A stretch of 41,431 nt of DNA. It comes from an uncultured Eubacteriales bacterium (GTDB lineage: Bacteria; Bacillota; Clostridia; Oscillospirales; Acutalibacteraceae). The notes under the pieces are model-generated. The model made no database searches. It had not been told where the DNA came from and worked only from the letters and a program-made list of their open reading frames with translations. How positions within the stretch are numbered: position 1 is the stretch's first letter; each line of letters starts with the position of its first letter. The stretch is taken from contig OMYO01000017.1 of assembly GCA_900315285.1 (NCBI GenBank), positions 1 through 41,431 of the forward strand, written 5' to 3'. This document shows, in pieces, positions 871 to 35,493 of this stretch. Made by a program: the position numbers and the translations under genes.

Positions 871-1536
871 TTATTCCGTCTTCAGGGCGGTGCCTTTTCC
901 GGAGAGATAGACCATCCAGTCCAGAAGGAAGGTGACGGCGAGAAGGAGAAAACCGACCAGTATGTCCAGCCACACCTCGTGGGTGGAGACATCAAAGACC
1001 GGATATGGGTTGGGAAGATATCCAAAATAGACCAGCGGAAAGACCACTCCACCGTATATTGTATTGATTAGAACGCCCCACCAGGAGTCCCGGAACCGAA
1101 GGGCGGGGTTTGGCTCAAAGATGGCGAGAGAGGAAAAGGCCAGCACCGGGGACAGGAAATTCAAAAAGAGTGCCGGACCGGCAAACAATGCCTTTATATA
1201 CCCCTCTTGTGGCCCCACGAACATGACTATGGTGGCAAAGTTAATGACCAGAAGGCAGGTTGTAATATACCGGAGCGCCCGGACAAACGGTGGAATGCTG
1301 CGGGAGGCGTTCCTTAGAGCTCTGGCGCAGTAACCGACAAGGAGCGCTGCAGAGACCAGAGCGAGAGCGCCACTGAGACTCTCATAAAGGATAAAGGTAT
1401 TGGAATGGTATTTCACAACTTCCATAATAAGTCCAATACCGGTGAAGAGTACCAGGGCAGAATTGCAGATCAGCGCCCCGACCGTGCGGCTGCGCTCTGC
1501 AACATACCCCGCATACTCCTGTATACTGTTACCCAT
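871..1536 (-). CDS. Multi-pass membrane protein of unknown function
   Basis: This 221-aa protein has about six hydrophobic segments, for example around SALVLFTGIGLIMEVV, the alanine-rich segment before residue 80, the central leucine and phenylalanine-rich part and a C-terminal segment ending LLLAVTFLLDWMVYL. I do not recognise the family. The frame opens at 1560, but GGGAGGATC lies inside that extension, 8 nt before the ATG at 1536, so I take 1536 as the start. It is divergent from the AraC-type regulator with a 140-bp spacer, the usual arrangement for a regulator and its target. That relationship is inference only. Confidence 0.75.
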   Translation of the reverse strand: MGNSIQEYAGYVAERSRTVGALICNSALVLFTGIGLIMEVVKYHSNTFILYESLSGALALVSAALLVGYCARALRNASRSIPPFVRALRYITTCLLVINFATIVMFVGPQEGYIKALFAGPALFLNFLSPVLAFSSLAIFEPNPALRFRDSWWGVLINTIYGGVVFPLVYFGYLPNPYPVFDVSTHEVWLDILVGFLLLAVTFLLDWMVYLSGKGTALKTE

Positions 1537-1603
1537 AAATGATCCTCCCTTGTTCAACACACCTCATCATAGACCGGGGATATGAATGACAAAAGAACAA
1601 ACA

Positions 1604-1633
1604 TTGACGGAAAGACAGAAAATCTGGTATATT
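1604..1633 (+). promoter_or_regulatory. Candidate promoter for the AraC-type regulator
   Basis: TTGACG (1604-1609) and TATATT (1628-1633) are spaced 18 nt apart, with the gene start at 1677. The match to the sigma-70 consensus is good. Confidence 0.6.
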
Positions 1634-28394: not shown

Positions 28395-28808
28395 TTATCG
28401 GATCCCCCGCAGCGACTCATGCCGGTCCACCCGGTCATAATATGCGGTGATCTTCTTTAATGCCTCGTCCACGTCCGCCTCCAGGTCGAACGTGGAAATG
28501 GCCTTTTTCTCCAATTGTTTTTGGGCTTGGAACCCGACTTTTGTGGCGAGGATGGCGCGGACATCGGAGAGGTGCTCCACTTTACCGGAGGTCGCGCCAC
28601 AGCCGCCACCTCCTCCATGGCCACAGCCACTGCCGGGGCCACAAGCAGACCCTGCATCGCCCCCGCCTTCCTCCAACGGAATTTCCCGGATGCCGCGAAA
28701 CTCGAACCGGGTCCCCTCCGCCTCATAGATGCGGAACGACTGGGCCGCGCCGAACGTGGTGTCAATGACTGAGCCGTCTGTCGACGCCACCGCCAAAAGA
28801 TAGCTCAT
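28395..28808 (-). CDS. NifX/NafY-type cofactor-binding protein with Cys/Gly/His-rich insert
   Basis: This 137-aa protein has the fold of the NifX/NifB-C-terminal/NafY family, which carries iron-sulfur cofactor precursors (start SYLLAVASTDGSVIDTTFG, then ...FEFRGIREIPL). The usual HFGRA motif is degenerate (TTFGAAQSF). A striking insert near residues 52-71 reads CGPGSGCGHGGGGGCG, with three cysteines and a histidine that could bind metal or a cluster. The ATG at 28808 shares one base with the preceding TGA stop (TGATG), so translation is coupled to the NifK-like gene; a GTG nine nt earlier is less likely. It is last in the operon and is probably a chaperone or carrier for the cofactor or for the D/K proteins. 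Confidence 0.85.
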   Translation of the reverse strand: MSYLLAVASTDGSVIDTTFGAAQSFRIYEAEGTRFEFRGIREIPLEEGGGDAGSACGPGSGCGHGGGGGCGATSGKVEHLSDVRAILATKVGFQAQKQLEKKAISTFDLEADVDEALKKITAYYDRVDRHESLRGIR

Positions 28809-30112
28809 CAGTTCCACCTCTGTACTGCAACGGAATAGATGTCCTCAATGACCTTGATGCCGCCCTGATAGCCCACGTAGGACTCATCCATGACGACCTT
28901 GTCCTGGACTGGCCAAGAGATGTTCAGGTAGTGGCCGTACATCTCCTCCGTCACCTCTTTCTCCCAATAGGAACCGAGGACGAGCGGGTAGCCGTGGTAG
29001 TCGTGGGCACGGATGGCCTGAGATATCTTCCAGCTGTCCGTCTCAAACTCCACCGGCGCCTTTATGCCATGGTTCAGATTCGAGAACTCAGCGGCCACGG
29101 ATTCCCGGTACTTCTTCGGCGTGTCGTCCACGACAAACTGGGTGGCCGGATTCAGGCTCAGGTCGTTGACGAGGAATTTTGTCAGGGCCAGGGAGTACTG
29201 GGCATCCGCGGACACCGTGAACTGCTTCGCCATGACGCGGGTCTCAAGGAAGAGGTCGGCGTATCGCTCAATCAGATAGTAGTAATAGCCCTCCTGGTCC
29301 GCAATGACGCTCTCCACCTTATCCGATGGGACGCCGGCATACTCGCCGAGGGCCCGCAGGAACTTGCTGGTCTCAAAGGCGCCCACTGGCAGGTTCGGCC
29401 AGTGCAGGAAGGGGATCCCGAGGCGCTTTTCCATGCGCTCCATGGGCTCGATCCCCACCCAGGGGGAGACTAGAAGGTTGAACTCGGCCTTGGGGATGTC
29501 GCGGACCCGGTCCGTGCCCCCTTCATATCCGAAGATAACATTGGGCGTCAGGCCCAGCAGAGAGACCAGTTTTGCCAGCTGCTCATAGTTTCCGAGCCAG
29601 AACAGGTCCTGGTACGGGACATCGGCGAAGATGTTGACGAGGCCTTTCTCCCGCTCCCCTTCCGGGGCCGGCTCGAGGTACTGGTCGGTGATGGCATCCA
29701 GCACCTGCTCATAGCCTGTGTAGCTGTTGCCCCGGAACCCGGCAGTCTCAGCCAGGATGACCGGCTTGCCGGCCTCGCGGAACTCGTCAACGACACTCAC
29801 GGAGTCATCGCCGACGATTTCCGGAATACATCCGGTGAGGACAATATAGAGATCCGCATCCAGGACTTTCATGGCATTCTCAATGGTCGTGCGGAGTTTC
29901 CGTGTACCGCCAAAGACGACGTCCTTCTCATTGAGGCTCGTGCAGGGGAAAATGTTCGGGGAGTAGTGTCCCGAGCTCCCGATGGTATCCGAGAGCTTTG
30001 CGGCGCAGCCGGGGCCCGAGTGGAGCACCGGGATGGCCCCGGGAATAGCCTGCACACTCTGCATGGCGGCCAGCGAGCACTTGTACCGCTGTCCGTCCAG
30101 TATCTTAGCCAT
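28808..30112 (-). CDS. Nitrogenase-like component 1, beta (NifK-like) subunit
   Basis: This 434-aa protein belongs to the nitrogenase component 1 family. Three cysteines match the P-cluster ligands of NifK: C12 (RYKCSLAAM), C36 (HSGPGCAAK) and C95 (VLTGCIPEIVGDD). The segment AETAGFRGNSYTGYEQVLD matches the conserved NifK region after it. It should form a heterotetramer with the NifD-like protein. It is shorter than molybdenum NifK (about 520) and lacks its N-terminal extension. The ATG at 30112 overlaps the upstream gene by 8 nt and has AAGGAG upstream; the frame opens at 30151. True NifK function in N2 fixation is unlikely given its partner's substitutions. Confidence 0.9.
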   Translation of the reverse strand: MAKILDGQRYKCSLAAMQSVQAIPGAIPVLHSGPGCAAKLSDTIGSSGHYSPNIFPCTSLNEKDVVFGGTRKLRTTIENAMKVLDADLYIVLTGCIPEIVGDDSVSVVDEFREAGKPVILAETAGFRGNSYTGYEQVLDAITDQYLEPAPEGEREKGLVNIFADVPYQDLFWLGNYEQLAKLVSLLGLTPNVIFGYEGGTDRVRDIPKAEFNLLVSPWVGIEPMERMEKRLGIPFLHWPNLPVGAFETSKFLRALGEYAGVPSDKVESVIADQEGYYYYLIERYADLFLETRVMAKQFTVSADAQYSLALTKFLVNDLSLNPATQFVVDDTPKKYRESVAAEFSNLNHGIKAPVEFETDSWKISQAIRAHDYHGYPLVLGSYWEKEVTEEMYGHYLNISWPVQDKVVMDESYVGYQGGIKVIEDIYSVAVQRWN

Positions 30113-31583
30113 TCTTTTTCTTCTCCTTCCCCTGCTGCATGAAGTAGTCAATGTTCTGCTGATACCACCAGTCGGTGTACGGCAGTTTCACGTGGGCCGC
30201 CAGGTTCTCCTCGAAGCTCCGGTTATGGATGGCATCGAGAACCGCGTTGGCGAACTCCAGCGTGTGCTTGTAACCGAAAATCATGTACTCGTCGGCGACA
30301 TAGACCGCCGGCGTGCCGTTCTTTATGGCCCATACCGTGGAGCCCGGATGCCGGGACAGGTACAGGTCCGGCTGATACCGGTGCAGGATGTTCATGACCT
30401 CGTAGTTTTGCTGGTCTGAGACGGAGGCACCGTAGTCTATGCCCTTGTCCAGCAGGTATTTCATGGATGGCGGTACATCGCCATTCTCATATTTCTTGTC
30501 GTAGTGCCAGGCCAGGGCCCAGACGACCTGGATTCCCAGCTCATCCAGCACACGGGAGACCTCGAACGTGTAGCCGGGACCCATGCCGATAACGGCGCGC
30601 AGGCCCTTGAGCTCCTTCTTGATCTCCTCGATCTGCGGAATATATTTCTTCCTCTCCCGGGCGATGTACGCCTCGATCTTGTCAGAACGGTTTGTGACCC
30701 GGCCAATCTCCCGCAGCCACGTCTCGAATCCGGTGATACCCAGCGGATTGACCGTGCGGATATACGGAACCCCGTACTTCTCCTCCAGACCGTTGCCCAG
30801 ATAATTGCCCAGAGTTCCGCAGATGCAGGTCGTCGCCTGGGCCTCGGACAGATGCCGCAGTTCCTCCACGGAGGAGTTGCAGTACAGGAAGACCGGGTCG
30901 AGATCGAACTCGTGGAACATCTCCACGATCTCCGGGCGGGCGCTCTCATAGAAGTTCTTGAAGTTGATGGTGTTGCGCTTCTGCTTCGGCGGCTCCACGA
31001 TCTCACTCAGAACGGCATGATCGGAGATATCAAAGCCTGTGGCCCAGATGCGGGACTTGAATCCTTCGCAGTGCACGGCGGCAATAGGTACGTCGATCTC
31101 CGGCCGCACCTCCTCGACGACGGCGTCAATGTCCTCGCCGGTAATGCCGGTGGTGCAGGAGCTGGCCACGAAGATGGCCTTCGGGTGATGGCGCTCATAG
31201 GTCTCGAGGATAATCTTGCGGAGCTGTTCCGCAGAGCCGAAGATGGTGTCCCGCTCGTTGACGTCAGTGCCAACGTATACGGTGTTTGTGGTAACTCCGC
31301 GCTTTTTGGCCATTACTTTGTCCTGCCAGTAGACCATGGCTGATACTGCGGAGCATCCGGAGGGTCCGTGGTGGATAATGGCTACATCGCGGATATTGGC
31401 GAGCTGCCCCAGGGCGCACATGGAGAGGCAGGAACTGGACTGGGAGAAACAACGGGAGCAGCCACGGAGCGTGCCGCACTCACTCTGCTCCGAGAGGTCC
31501 TGCAGGCTGCCGAAATAGCCGGTGATGGAGCCGATCCTGTTCTCGCGGGTGGCCACGTTGGAACTGTTTAGATCAATGGACAT
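30105..31583 (-). CDS. Nitrogenase-like component 1, alpha (NifD-like) subunit
   Basis: This 492-aa protein would hold the active-site cofactor. P-cluster-type cysteines are C52 or C56, C77 (HHGPSGC) and C143 (SSCTTGITGEDID). Aligned by eye to Azotobacter NifD, C255 (CICGTLGNYLGNGLEEKYGVP region) falls on cofactor ligand Cys275 and H440 (FGYKHTLEFA) on His442. The position of Gln191 is Trp180 and that of His195 is Phe184 in HCEGFKSRIWATGFDISDH, so the groups used for N2 and alkyne reduction are gone. Extra cysteines lie at 36, 42 and 45. AGGAGG is upstream of the start. A cofactor-bearing reductase with a non-N2 substrate is the best reading; relation to methylthio-alkane reductase is possible. 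Confidence 0.9.
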   Translation of the reverse strand: MSIDLNSSNVATRENRIGSITGYFGSLQDLSEQSECGTLRGCSRCFSQSSSCLSMCALGQLANIRDVAIIHHGPSGCSAVSAMVYWQDKVMAKKRGVTTNTVYVGTDVNERDTIFGSAEQLRKIILETYERHHPKAIFVASSCTTGITGEDIDAVVEEVRPEIDVPIAAVHCEGFKSRIWATGFDISDHAVLSEIVEPPKQKRNTINFKNFYESARPEIVEMFHEFDLDPVFLYCNSSVEELRHLSEAQATTCICGTLGNYLGNGLEEKYGVPYIRTVNPLGITGFETWLREIGRVTNRSDKIEAYIARERKKYIPQIEEIKKELKGLRAVIGMGPGYTFEVSRVLDELGIQVVWALAWHYDKKYENGDVPPSMKYLLDKGIDYGASVSDQQNYEVMNILHRYQPDLYLSRHPGSTVWAIKNGTPAVYVADEYMIFGYKHTLEFANAVLDAIHNRSFEENLAAHVKLPYTDWWYQQNIDYFMQQGKEKKKNG

Positions 31584-31603: not shown

Positions 31604-32590
31604 TCAGACATCATAGAGCGGGGTCGTGAGATAACGCAGGCCGGTGTCGGGCGCAATGGCCACGATCAGCTTGCCCTCGGTCTCGGGCCGCTCGGCAATC
31701 TTTGTGGCAGCGGCCAGAATGGCACCGGATGAGGTGCCGAGAAGAATGCCGTCGTACCGTGCCGCAGCGCGGGCCGCCTCATAGGCCTCCTGGGTCTCAA
31801 TGCTGAAATACTCGTCATAGATATCCGGATTGAACGTCCTCGGGAGATGCTCTGCCGGAATGCCCACGAATGGGTGGACACCGAAGATCTCCTCCGGGGT
31901 CGGATTCTCCTCAGATGGGAGGGAATTCGGGCCCGGCTGTACCGCGGCAATCTTGATATTCGGGTTGCGGGACTTCAGATAGGCGCCGGCGCCGGTGACG
32001 GTTCCGCCGGTTCCCACGGCAGCAACAAAGTAGTCCACATTGCCGTCCGTGTCTTTCCAAATCTCAGGGCCGGTCGTTGTGCGGTGGATCTCCGGGTTGG
32101 CCGGGTTCACGATCTGGTTTACGAAGACCAGCGGGCCGCCCTCTTTTTTCAGGATCTCCTCCAGGGCATTGGTTGCGGCAATGAAGTCGCCACCGGTCTC
32201 CTGCAGGACCTGGAAGACCTCCGGGACCTCGGACAGTTTGACGGTCTCGCCGCCAAAGGCGTGGATGACCTGATAGCGCTCGACGCTGACCTCGTCCTGG
32301 ATATAGACCCGGAATTTGTAGCCCAGGACGGCGGCCGCAGCGGCAAGTCCAATTCCGGTGTTTCCGCTCGTGGTATCCACAATGGTGTCGCCCGGGTGCA
32401 GGATACCGCGTTTCTCAGCGTCCCGGATCATGGCGAAGGCAATACGATCCTTGACGCTCTGGTTCGGGTTGGCGAGTTCCAGTTTTACGGCGATCCGGCC
32501 GTAGAGCTTCTTCTTAATTTCGTAGTTGGAGAGCTCCAGCAGCGGGGTGTTTCCGACAAGTTCTTCTATGGATTTATGGATTGCAGGCAT
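31604..32590 (-). CDS. cysK: Cysteine synthase family (O-acetylserine sulfhydrylase type) PLP enzyme
   Basis: This 328-aa fold-type II PLP enzyme has the lysine motif PNQSVKDRIAFAMI near residue 45, the substrate loop TTSGNTGIGLAAAA, the PLP phosphate-binding GTGGTVTGAGAYLK and the C-terminal LLGTSSGAILAA. Enzymes of this type replace the acetyl of O-acetylserine by sulfide to give cysteine; related ones use other thiols. The gene lies between the nifH-like and nifD-like genes with gaps of 20 bp on each side, so it is transcribed with them. That placement suggests it captures sulfide or a thiol released by the reductase. No serine acetyltransferase gene (cysE) is present in the window. Confidence 0.92.
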   Translation of the reverse strand: MPAIHKSIEELVGNTPLLELSNYEIKKKLYGRIAVKLELANPNQSVKDRIAFAMIRDAEKRGILHPGDTIVDTTSGNTGIGLAAAAAVLGYKFRVYIQDEVSVERYQVIHAFGGETVKLSEVPEVFQVLQETGGDFIAATNALEEILKKEGGPLVFVNQIVNPANPEIHRTTTGPEIWKDTDGNVDYFVAAVGTGGTVTGAGAYLKSRNPNIKIAAVQPGPNSLPSEENPTPEEIFGVHPFVGIPAEHLPRTFNPDIYDEYFSIETQEAYEAARAAARYDGILLGTSSGAILAAATKIAERPETEGKLIVAIAPDTGLRYLTTPLYDV

Positions 32591-32610: not shown

Positions 32611-33824
<1,214 letters not shown>

Positions 33825-33832
<8 letters not shown>

Positions 33833-34718
33833 GGGAGAACCGCTCCTTCACTGAGATCCTCCCGTAGACATCCCCGTGGCGGTCTTCCCGTCCGGGGACC
33901 CCTACGGCGTCGGCGCGGCAGCGGGCACAGTGACGGAACACGTCAATGTATTTGCCTGCCGCCGTCCTCGCCGCATCGATCTGCTCACAGGTGGGTTCTG
34001 GGATATCTTTCAGCTCATATTGCGGAATGAGCGGGATGATGTTGTAAATGCTGGCCCCGGCCTCTGCCACGGTCTTCGCCACAGTCTCAATGTGCTGGTC
34101 GTTGATCCCTGGCACAAGCACCGTGTTGACCTTCACGACAGTAGTTCCCGACGCGGCGACGCGCCGAATGCCCTCAATCTGGTTGTGGATCAGGATCTTC
34201 GCCGCGACCACGCCCTCAATCTTCTGGCCATGGTACAGGATATATTTGTTCAGCTTGGCCTCAATTTCAGGGTCCACGGCGTTCACCGTGACAGTCAGCG
34301 AGTCGATTCCGGCCTCTATGACCTCCTCGGCCCGTTCCGCCAAGAGGAGACCGTTTGTGCTCATGCACTTTATGAGTTCGGGATATTCCCGATCCACGTA
34401 GCGGAACGTCTCCAGTGCGTTGTCACTGGCCAGTGTATCGCCCGGACCGGCTATGCCGGCGACGGTAATGTAGGGACATACCTCCATGGCCTTTTCCAGG
34501 ACCCGGATGCTGTCCTCGGGTTTGATGACGGTGCCCGTGACACCAGGGCGCTGGGCGGTGTCGCTGACGGTGCGGTCGCAGAAGCGGCAACAGATGTTGC
34601 ATCCCGGGCTGACCGGGAGATGGATCCTTCCGAGGTTCCCCTGGGACCCCTGCCCAAAGCACGGATGCGACTGCTGCAGCCTGCGATAATTACTGCCGTC
34701 ACCCTGTGGTCCTGCCAT
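33825..34718 (-). CDS. NifB-like radical SAM enzyme
   Basis: This 297-aa protein is a stand-alone NifB-type radical SAM enzyme. The SAM-cluster cysteines are C40, C44 and C47 in PGCNICCRFCDRTVSD. The N-terminal HPCF motif and C-terminal HCARCRADAVGV motif match NifB, where they bind the two precursor [4Fe-4S] clusters. NifB fuses these with a SAM-derived carbide to give the 8Fe cofactor precursor. Its presence implies that the D-like protein binds an 8Fe-type or larger carbide cluster. The usual C-terminal NifX domain is missing and encoded separately. It begins 144 nt after the yezD-like gene, with a hairpin in between. Confidence 0.93.
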
Positions 34719-34755
34719 TCTTCATTCTTCCTTTCTTCTCCTCTCCGTGACGTGG

Positions 34756-34813
34756 AAAAACCGGAGGCACTGCGAGAGAGGAAATGACCTCACCCCGCGG
34801 CACCTCCGGTTTT
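34756..34813 (-). terminator. Terminator-like hairpin between yezD-like and nifB-like genes
   Basis: On the minus strand AAAACCGGAGG and CCTCCGGTTTTT pair over 11 bp around a 35-nt loop that holds a smaller GAGG/CCTC stem. A T-rich tail follows. It may cause partial termination or shield an mRNA end. Confidence 0.6.
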
Positions 34814-34862
34814 CCGGTCAGTGTGGGATTGGAGCTATGTAAACTATGGGATATAGTAGCTG

Positions 34863-35030
34863 TCAAAGTCTAAATTTTTCGGTCCGATCCACCTGGATGA
34901 CCTTGCCATCCTGGACAATGATGGTGACCGTACCATACTGCGTCTCTTCCACCAGTTCCCGGACACGGTCCAGATAAACCGGCTGGCCGCTGTTCCCCTG
35001 CGGCGTCTTCTCTTCTTTTTCGCGATTCAT
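34863..35030 (-). CDS. YezD-like (DUF2292) small protein
   Basis: This 55-aa protein resembles the YezD/DUF2292 family: DRVRELVEETQYGTVTIIVQ followed by DGKVIQVDRTEKFRL. The family is found in bacteria near sulfur-assimilation genes, as far as I recall; its function is unknown. The ATG at 35030 has AGGAGAG upstream, directly after the attenuator terminator. Translation of longer frames from 35102 would read through the attenuator and is rejected. It is the first gene of the nitrogenase-like operon, which points to a sulfur-related role for the operon. Confidence 0.85.
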   Translation of the reverse strand: MNREKEEKTPQGNSGQPVYLDRVRELVEETQYGTVTIIVQDGKVIQVDRTEKFRL

Positions 35031-35048
35031 GATCTCTCCTAAACAAAA

Positions 35049-35093
35049 ACCGGCAGGTACCGCAGTCCAATAAAAGACCAGGCACCTGCCGGT
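35049..35093 (-). terminator. Attenuator terminator in the leader of the nitrogenase-like operon
   Basis: On the minus strand ACCGGCAGGTGCC (35081-35093) and GGTACCTGCCGGT (35049-35061) form a 13-bp stem with one G-T pair, followed by TTTTTGTTT. It ends directly before the ribosome binding site of the first gene. Its loop contains ATTGGAC (35065-35071), perfectly complementary to GTCCAAT (35128-35134) inside the leader peptide gene, so a competing antiterminator pairing is possible. Confidence 0.9.
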
Positions 35094-35111
35094 GACATAC
35101 AAGCAGATAAC

Positions 35112-35183
35112 TTATGGTAATACAGCCATTGGACGGCGCGCATATTGAGTTTTCATCATCATCATGCAACAGCACATCATCAT
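35112..35183 (-). CDS. Cys/Met-rich leader peptide of the nitrogenase-like operon
   Basis: This 23-codon frame encodes MMMCCCMMMM followed by KTQYARRPMAVLP and TAA. AAAGGA lies about nine nt upstream of the first ATG. Seven Met and three Cys codons in the first ten codons are the mark of an attenuation leader like those of amino acid operons. The stop codon lies 18 nt before the terminator stem at 35049-35093. A ribosome paused on the Met/Cys run would leave GTCCAAT at 35128-35134 free to pair with the terminator loop; a ribosome that reaches the stop would cover it. This predicts operon expression when charged Met- or Cys-tRNA is scarce. It is too short to be found by length-limited gene callers. 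Confidence 0.85.
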   Translation of the reverse strand: MMMCCCMMMMKTQYARRPMAVLP

Positions 35184-35302
35184 GGCGAGTTGTCCTTTCT
35201 TGTTATAGTTGACCTTCTGGGTGGCAGCTTTCCCTTTTGGGGCCTCCCTCGGGCATTTCCTAGGCTGCCCTCTTGGCGTTTCTCAGGTGGTCCTTTTGGC
35301 AT
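35180..35302 (-). CDS. Possible small upstream frame overlapping the leader peptide gene
   Basis: This 40-codon frame (starting MPKGPPEKRQEG, rich in Pro, Arg and Lys) ends with TGA inside the ATGATG that starts the leader peptide, an ATGA overlap typical of coupled translation. Its own ribosome binding site is poor (AGGA only one nt from ATG). It lies inside the transcribed leader, about 40 nt after the expected transcription start. It could be chance, since the leader RNA is GC-rich and structured (GGCAGC and GCTGCC can pair). Confidence 0.25.
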   Translation of the reverse strand: MPKGPPEKRQEGSLGNARGRPQKGKLPPRRSTITRKDNSP

Positions 35303-35346
35303 TTCCTAGAATTTAAGTATGAATAATATGTTTTATTGATGTACCC

Positions 35347-35375
35347 ATAATAGTCCCCTATTTGTCCTTTGTCAA
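35347..35375 (-). promoter_or_regulatory. Promoter of the nitrogenase-like operon
   Basis: On the minus strand TTGACA (35370-35375) and TATTAT (35347-35352) are separated by exactly 17 nt. Transcription would start near 35340, giving a leader of about 310 nt that holds the small upstream frame, the Cys/Met leader peptide and the attenuator. It is a strong constitutive-looking promoter with no nif-type sigma-54 element. Confidence 0.85.
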
Positions 35376-35493
35376 GGGATTTTCGTGAGAAATTGGCCGT
35401 GCTCGGACAAGGTAGCGGAAAAATTAGGATCGGAGATGAAAAATGGAGGAAAAAATACTGAATCGCCAACTACCTTCGTGTTTTTCTGAAAAT

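Follow-up and report, generated by a model that had tools for sequence, protein, structure and literature searches.

Analysis of the window (the whole stretch of DNA under study, 41,431 nucleotides) has indicated that a short leader ORF carrying Met and Cys codon runs, together with the hairpin located after it, very probably constitutes a ribosome-mediated transcription attenuator that would respond to these codons and control a mar-like operon. A probability of about 0.85 is given to this reading, with less confidence in the individual details of the proposed switch. Attenuation by Met and Cys codons had been proposed in a first-pass annotation of the same DNA, and it is supported by a layout that recurs in other genomes, by codons that follow the pathway of the downstream gene and by a leader-to-terminator helix that appears to be kept, all of them features read from sequence.

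The mar-like operon and its leader region

The top solved structures for the MarD-like protein (alpha subunit) of the window were 9fmg and 9d9u (E values of 2e-100 and 1e-99, the next nitrogenase being at 2e-32), and 9d9u_C was the top solved structure for the MarK-like protein (beta subunit). Both 9fmg and 9d9u, entries titled Nitrogenase, we take to be the methylthio-alkane reductase of Rhodospirillum rubrum, the published residue numbers fitting 9fmg. According to the accessible part of PMC12552129, Cys270 and His429 of R. rubrum MarD are cluster ligands and Arg428-His429 is a possible hallmark. The alignment places Cys270 at C255 and Arg428-His429 at R411-H412 of the window protein; at the active-site pair His194/Trp195, Trp195 is kept and His194 is replaced by Ile, and Phe199 is also kept. 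The top structure matches and the kept Cys and Arg-His residues point to a Mar-like operon, and the nitrogenase-like system recognised in the first-pass annotation would be of the methylthio-alkane reductase kind. The product of this reductase, methanethiol, is described in the accessible part of PMC12552129 as a direct methionine precursor. A Mar-kind identity fits methionine supply, and the operon is likely to be a sulfur-scavenging one.

Relatives of MarD with 76-83% identity were found in Ruminococcus, Lachnospiraceae, Treponema and others (best 120 of 1124). Among 60 genomes near that of the window, a MarD match was present in four, its own and three at 29-36% identity, and none of the seven genomes of the same genus had one. 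This distribution suggests that the operon was probably acquired.

Table 1. Features of the leader region and of the mar-like operon, in the order of transcription
Feature	Position	Strand	Basis
Predicted sigma-70-type promoter TTGACA-17-TATTAT	35375-35347	minus	consensus match only, 11/12 letters
Two 19-nt direct repeats around CTAGGAAATGCC, untranslated region 5' of the leader ORF	35245-35263 and 35291-35309	minus	
Shine-Dalgarno AGGA of the leader ORF, 9 nt 5' of the first ATG	35196-35193	minus	read from sequence
Leader ORF MMMCCCMMMMKTQYARRPMAVLP and stop	35183-35112	minus	open reading frame and translation; matched by model R3 from other genomes
Regulatory codons (ATG three times, TGC TGT TGC, ATG four times)	35154-35183	minus	read from sequence
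Candidate antiterminator 5' strand CGCCGTCCAAT, leader codons 16-19	35138-35128	minus	complementarity; shuffle p 0.037 and 0.027
Predicted terminator hairpin, 13-bp lower and 6-bp upper stem	35093-35049	minus	inverted repeat, folding
Candidate antiterminator 3' strand ATTGGACTGCG, within the terminator apex	35071-35061	minus	complementarity
T run TTTTGTTT, directly 3' of the hairpin	35048-35041	minus	read from sequence
yezD-like gene (DUF2292), first gene of the operon	34863-35030	minus	PF10055, E 4e-17
Second conserved hairpin with T run, between the yezD- and nifB-like genes	34756-34820	minus	
NifB-like radical SAM protein (MarB-like)	33825-34718	minus	
NifX-like protein (Nitro_FeMo-Co domain)	33467-33832	minus	
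NifH-like reductase (MarH-like)	32611-33477	minus	
CysK-like PLP enzyme	31604-32590	minus	
MarD-like nitrogenase component 1 subunit, with the Mar R-H pair and cluster Cys	30105-31583	minus	
MarK-like subunit (nitrogenase component 1)	28808-30151	minus	
Second NifX-like protein	28395-28817	minus	

The leader ORF comprises 23 codons, and the first-pass description of its length, ribosome binding site and MMMCCCMMMM start was exact. Codons 1-10 are ATG ATG ATG TGC TGT TGC ATG ATG ATG ATG, and codons 11-23 with the stop codon are AAA ACT CAA TAT GCG CGC CGT CCA ATG GCT GTA TTA CCA TAA. An untranslated stretch separates the promoter-like site from the AGGA of this ORF, and two promoter-like sites were found around the leader versus 1.1 expected from shuffles. 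The two direct repeats in this untranslated region are possible regulator sites.

The hairpin starts 18 bases after the leader stop codon, and the T run is followed by the Shine-Dalgarno sequence and the ATG of the yezD-like gene. The 13-bp stem with a T run that had been noticed before the ribosome binding site of the first gene is present (35093-35081 / 35061-35049, 13 pairs including one G-U), with a 6-bp apical stem above it, and with -33.5 kcal/mol the hairpin is the strongest among 31 systems. Folding of the leader region, a check proposed along with the attenuator, gave a leader-terminator region more stable than 199 of 200 shuffles (z -3.7), the value being z -2.0 for a longer stretch starting at the promoter. 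A terminator scan listed the leader site only with a 5-pair stem, a type of site found twice versus 1.3 expected. Rfam at gathering gave no match in the window, SAM riboswitch and T-box included, and up to E 5 over positions 34700-35420 nothing relevant (neither SAM riboswitch nor T-box) was obtained.

The second conserved hairpin, located after yezD, looks like another attenuator or a riboswitch-like RNA. The consensus of this element is ACTGACYGGAAA(R)CCRGAGG ... CCTCYGGTTTTTT, in which a small CYGG/CCRG hairpin would exclude the terminator. The pattern was present in 30 of 147 sequences, duplicates included. Outside the window, 20 of 30 such places follow a yezD match at a distance of at most 40 nt; instances of the element are L022:4044, L090:5695, L083:1519, L114:1636, L078:2194, L098:499, L099:4295 and L080:7916. 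No Rfam match to this element was found in the window or in the seven loci scanned.

Leaders in related loci and in other genomes

The locus set consisted of the best 80 of 220 MarD relatives. The order yezD-nifB-nifX-marH-cysK-marD-marK-nifX recurs in many of these 80 loci, often with a second cysK in front, and because many relatives carry this second cysK before yezD, a scan for M/C runs directly 5' of yezD missed most leaders. A recognisable operon head preceded by at least 350 nt was available in 57 loci, the other 23 having no usable head. A Cys/Met-rich ORF with a Shine-Dalgarno sequence was found before 14 of the 57 heads, 12 of them also with hairpin and T run, versus 3 leaders and 1 terminator at 232 control genes scanned alike in the same loci (Fisher p 1e-8); a narrower control set gave 2 leaders, 1 of them with a terminator. 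By the criteria used the other 43 heads carry no such leader, including L020-L023, the nearest in MarD, and the comparison of leaders upstream of related operons, also proposed in the first-pass annotation, gave a mixed result, with leaders at the 14 heads and none by these criteria at the 43. In L090, which is among the 43, a leader is visible by eye with no Shine-Dalgarno sequence by the pattern used, and the leader of L067 stands at a locus for which the rule gives no head; neither is counted among the 14. The Cys leaders of L063 and L073 have no terminator by the criterion used. Seven of the 80 loci were scanned with Rfam at gathering and gave only tRNAs; five of the seven (L067, L069, L073, L088 and L090) hold such leaders. 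Cultured relatives with leaders of this class are [Clostridium] polysaccharolyticum DSM 1801 (L069) and Lachnospiraceae bacterium 3-1 (L034).

Two further observations were made in these loci. Of 60 loci scanned, 23 (L020:5789-5861, L034:5674-5743, L083:1599-1668 and L090:5775-5845, among others) carry a tRNA-Cys gene within the mar operon, immediately 5' of the nifB-like gene, so that the supply of Cys-tRNA would be expressed together with the operon; no tRNA-Cys gene is present in the window. A Paludibacteraceae mar locus contains, about 5 kb before cysK, a long ORF ending in MRCSMHCCCCRCCMPIC (L096:2955-3137).

A covariance model of seven leaders of this type (R1) recovered leaders outside its training (L090, L083, L071 and L067). 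Applied to 200 genomes, it yielded 22 places, of which 15 had no leader, two were already known (L110 and L116) and five were new and kept: L111 and L112 before cysK, L113 (kept by eye) before a metN-like gene, L114 before a solute-binding protein gene (SBP_bac_5) and L115 (...MCMMMCCC...) before a metQ-like gene. A second model (R2), made from 16 leaders and applied to 392 genomes, gave 35 places (2 known, 5 without locus and 28 new loci), and nine of the new loci were kept. Seven of these leaders, several of them near-identical, precede cysK-like genes (three confirmed as PALP by Pfam, the rest read from translated starts), another (L161) precedes a gene whose start reads as a nifB-like mar gene, and the last, L172 (TMMMCGRSMMMSM), is at a contig end. 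The R2 match L160 was dropped as chance. In 39 genomes of relatives of the window, its own included, R2 gave many weak places, and none of the 15 loci examined was kept. One of these loci, L138, from a genome in the family of the window, does have a 46-codon ORF with CCICC and a Shine-Dalgarno sequence, followed by a hairpin and T run (about 1468-1608, minus strand).

When L172 served as query for a DNA search of 58 genomes, L176 proved to have MMMMCSRSMMMSM ahead of a metN-like gene, and in L177 (1304-1648, minus strand) what appear to be two complete Met/Cys attenuators stand in tandem ahead of a single metN-like gene. A sequence-only model (R3) was built from four leaders of L172, L176 and L177. 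The leader place was the sole R3 match in the window (E 1.6e-4) and in its source genome (E 0.0075), a recovery that owes partly to the ATG repeats; it was not listed in a stricter R3 run (E up to 0.001), and it was missed by R1 and R2. Four genomes among 40 relatives matched R3, the window's own, L208 (kept), and L206 and L209, which were dropped because they have no leader ORF. Within the family of the window (G015), R3 found MNSTFSNRNRMMMCNVSCFCMMRTCACSCRC with a terminator; the genes behind it are cysK, a DUF2292 gene and mar genes with identities of 32-50%. Elsewhere it found ...MDMMMSMGMMMCM... and close variants, which precede metA in L222, L223, L225 and L226, whereas the sequence of L224 stops short of a gene. 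In L211 it found ...MCCCSFMQMCMAM... in front of a PLP gene of the cystathionine type (Cys_Met_Meta_PP). The metA leaders are Met-dominated, with MDMMMSMGMMMCM and MDMMMSMGMMMSM or MGMMMSMGMMMSM, and have hairpins and T runs. One of seven matches was kept in one R3 search, and five of seven non-training matches (L222-L226, with L221 and L227 dropped) in the other.

Concerning the downstream genes, two of four MetA proteins tested were above the NCBIfam cut-off as homoserine O-acetyltransferase, and the MetN and MetQ models were the best matches for their genes yet below cut-off; a NIL domain is present in the metN-like proteins of L176 and L113 and absent in that of L177. In the genome of the window, the ABC ATPases nearest MetN (33 matches, 6 loci examined) showed no convincing leader.

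The Met runs of the leader ORF are ATG repeats at the DNA level, and the Met/Cys run is an imperfect repeat because its Cys codons are TGC, TGT and TGC. Such runs are simple repeats that read HHHH and HHH on the opposite strand, as would be found if an ATG microsatellite lay by chance beside a terminator. This explanation is highly improbable in view of the in-frame mixed TGC/TGT codons, the Shine-Dalgarno sequence and the terminator 5' of the first gene. In addition, MMMC..MMM leaders are found again in two other genomes, ahead of metN-like genes, and an MMMC leader stands ahead of cysK-yezD-mar genes in the family of the window.

Codon content, leader-terminator pairing and folding

The Met share of the leaders (Met/(Met+Cys codons), start codon excluded) averaged 0.33 before cysK (18 leaders) versus 0.72 before met genes (10 leaders; p 1.8e-5). 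The sample is non-random, Cys-rich or Met-rich leaders having been used to build the models, but no model made use of the downstream gene. After removal of near-duplicates, 13 versus 7 leaders gave p 5e-4. The codon test did not include L063 (whose first gene is cysK), L067, L073, L096 and L114, nor the duplicates L075, L116, L149, L152 and L153; Met shares of left-out leaders were 0.29 (L063), 0.38 (L067), 0.40 (L073) and 0.38 (L114). The share was 0.70 in the window, 0.70 in L172, 0.43 in L161 and 0.40 in L090.

These codon counts bear on whether cysteine only, or methionine only, is sensed, the remaining codons being passengers. In most cysK leaders Cys predominates and Met codons often fall where a conserved hairpin also forms, and Cys runs are found in leaders of Mycobacterium (PMC1262725, accessible part). 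However, metA leaders hold 10 Met with 0-2 Cys. In L176 and L177 the metN leaders contain MMMM and MMM runs, with totals of 8 Met and 3-5 Cys, and the leader of the window holds 7 non-start Met and 3 Cys. Sensing of a single amino acid is considered unlikely. A leader that senses a general slowdown of translation (by an antibiotic or poor initiation) instead of charged Met or Cys tRNA is a still weaker candidate, and very unlikely, since codon content tracks the sulfur amino acid pathway to which the next gene belongs; it would be compatible with start-like ATG runs, which could slow initiation, and with another bacterial uORF that senses ribosome inhibitors (PMC12121999, accessible part).

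The complementarity between GTCCAAT and ATTGGAC pointed out in the first-pass annotation is real, and it lies inside an 11-nt match, 91% complementary, between the two candidate antiterminator strands. For each system, the stretch after the Cys codons was compared with the apex of its own terminator. The median shuffle p of 19 systems was 0.075, versus 0.42 for 298 between-group cross-pairings, and single values were at most 0.1 in 10 of the 19 versus 9% of cross-pairings. With 12 systems taken as independent, the Mann-Whitney p was 1e-7 (3e-7 on repeat), a value that like the others serves as a guide because the cross-pairings are mutually non-independent. The better member of two groups was the representative in the first of these runs; with the least favourable representatives p was 3e-6, with group medians 1e-6 and with both groups left out 3e-6. 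Six later-found systems, two of them related to each other, gave shuffle p values of 0.066-0.25, the median of 151 cross-pairings being 0.34 (p 0.007), and four further systems gave 0.028-0.16 versus a median of 0.61 in 111 cross-pairings; an earlier test with 13 systems had shown less separation from cross-pairings. Single systems are weak (p 0.027-0.037 in the window and 0.17-0.34 in 8 of the 19), and so is, member by member, the seven-leader group around L034 (0.035-0.34). The sequence of the helix varies by system as judged by eye (CATATGC/GCATATG, CATGTGT/ACACATG, ACACTTTAT/ATAAAGTGT and CTTTTTTGG/CCAAGAAGG). A predicted leader-to-terminator helix that is kept across systems while its sequence changes is supported by these comparisons.

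Soft metals are bound by Met and Cys, and MMMCCCMMMM might be a functional micropeptide binding a metal such as copper. This is hardly to be expected, because the same position is occupied elsewhere by unrelated peptides that share codon type, terminator and antiterminator, features of the attenuator preferred here.

Folding of the window RNA has been carried out at different transcript ends. With a stalled ribosome having codon 4, 5, 6, 7 or 10 in the A site, the predicted probability of the antiterminator was 0.99-1.0 when the transcript ended at 35061 or 35058, and 0.12-0.88 at 35055. It was 0 for transcripts reaching 35052 or beyond, in which the terminator prevails; when no ribosome was modelled, it was 0.37 at 35061 and 0 at 35055. 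In the full-length RNA the terminator wins at every stall position tested. The terminator also forms with a ribosome at the stop codon, in a fold that omitted the antiterminator strand by construction; with usual ribosome footprints, a ribosome at this codon shields only part of leader codons 16-19. In the 30 other systems, upstream pairing was at least 0.88 with 35% of the 3' arm made in 29 (exception L067), and the terminator exceeded 0.5 at full length in 27 (exceptions L111, L147 and its near-duplicate L149). The model is one of equilibrium folding, with pseudoknots outside it, and because the full-length RNA favours the terminator, antitermination would have to be kinetic or act by partial occupancy. 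The competing fold claimed in the first-pass annotation dominates in nascent RNA behind a stalled ribosome and gives way to the terminator at equilibrium. Similarly, the classic attenuation layout stands as to leader, codon run and terminator, but the helix hits the terminator apex instead of the whole 5' arm, unlike textbook trp. One leader group has a conserved hairpin just 3' of the Cys codons (R1 structure), which is not clear in the window.

Proposed switch and comparison with known systems

When Met and Cys are ample, the ribosome would reach the stop codon and partly cover codons 16-19, and the terminator (35093-35041) would fold. With Met-tRNA or Cys-tRNA in short supply, stalling of the ribosome within codons 2-10 would leave codons 16-19 free to pair with the terminator apex once this is transcribed; the pairing would delay the terminator and RNA polymerase would proceed into the operon. 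The genes then read would provide methylthio-alkane reductase, cleaving methyl sulfides to methanethiol, the methionine precursor. In a wider sense, the clostridial leader-peptide attenuators probably form a family of sulfur amino acid sensors whose proportions of Met and Cys codons determine which shortage is read (Met-only for metA, mixed for met transporters and mar, Cys-rich for cysK), MMMCCCMMMM placing the nitrogenase-like enzyme of the window under charged Met-tRNA and Cys-tRNA through a timing-based terminator-apex antiterminator.

Methionine control in Firmicutes is usually attributed to SAM riboswitches, T-boxes and repressors, and a Met/Cys codon gauge, if true, would add a tRNA-charging input. 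It would also tie to amino acid supply a nitrogenase-like enzyme by which hydrocarbons would be released from organic sulfur, and would represent a natural two-amino-acid sensor with a setting readable from codons. Among the literature matches listed, in a search whose coverage largely excludes subscription papers, no paper was found on a Met or Cys leader in front of a nitrogenase-like operon or of clostridial metA, metN or cysK genes.

The trp, his and leu attenuators consist of a short leader ORF with runs of pathway codons, an intrinsic terminator and a competing helix. The window shares the leader ORF with pathway codons, the terminator and the competing helix with them, and differs by its Met and Cys codons, by an apex-targeted helix that loses at equilibrium and by having no clear 1:2 hairpin. 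Polycysteine leader ORFs of Mycobacterium cys operons have reportedly been described by Canestrari in 2020. Cys leader ORFs are known from Mycobacterium, Propionibacterium and Bifidobacterium (PMC1262725, accessible part); the Mycobacterium cys leaders similarly have Cys codon runs before cysteine genes, but they belong to Actinobacteria, no conserved terminator hairpin was found and Met runs are not mentioned in the part of that source covered. As far as PMC8632094 is accessible, uORFC-8-2 before cysS of Rhodobacterales has tandem Cys codons and a terminator, and differs in having two Cys codons, a tRNA synthetase gene and an alphaproteobacterial host. The metL leader of Streptomyces lividans before metNIQ, MSTTSDRTPATEATTTPGARCMCRRMCAF, also combines Met and Cys codons (CMCRRMC), whereas its transcript is leaderless, no typical terminator was found and there is no nitrogenase-like operon; methionines and threonines are named by its authors (PMC8079986, accessible part). 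The His leader peptides before hisS paralogs of bacilli are likewise a case of leader peptide attenuation in Firmicutes, with histidine as the amino acid (PMC2965389, accessible part). With R. rubrum MarBHDK (PMC12552129 and PMC9147875, accessible parts) the window shares MarD/MarK similarity and the R-H pair, but it is distant in sequence and adds yezD-, cysK- and nifX-like genes and the putative leader attenuator. Cys leaders and one Met/Cys leader before metNIQ are already known, and what would be new is leader-peptide attenuation with Met and Cys input on a Mar-like relative of nitrogenase, as part of a wider set in Clostridia, the attenuation by Met/Cys codons being highly probable from the sequence comparisons.
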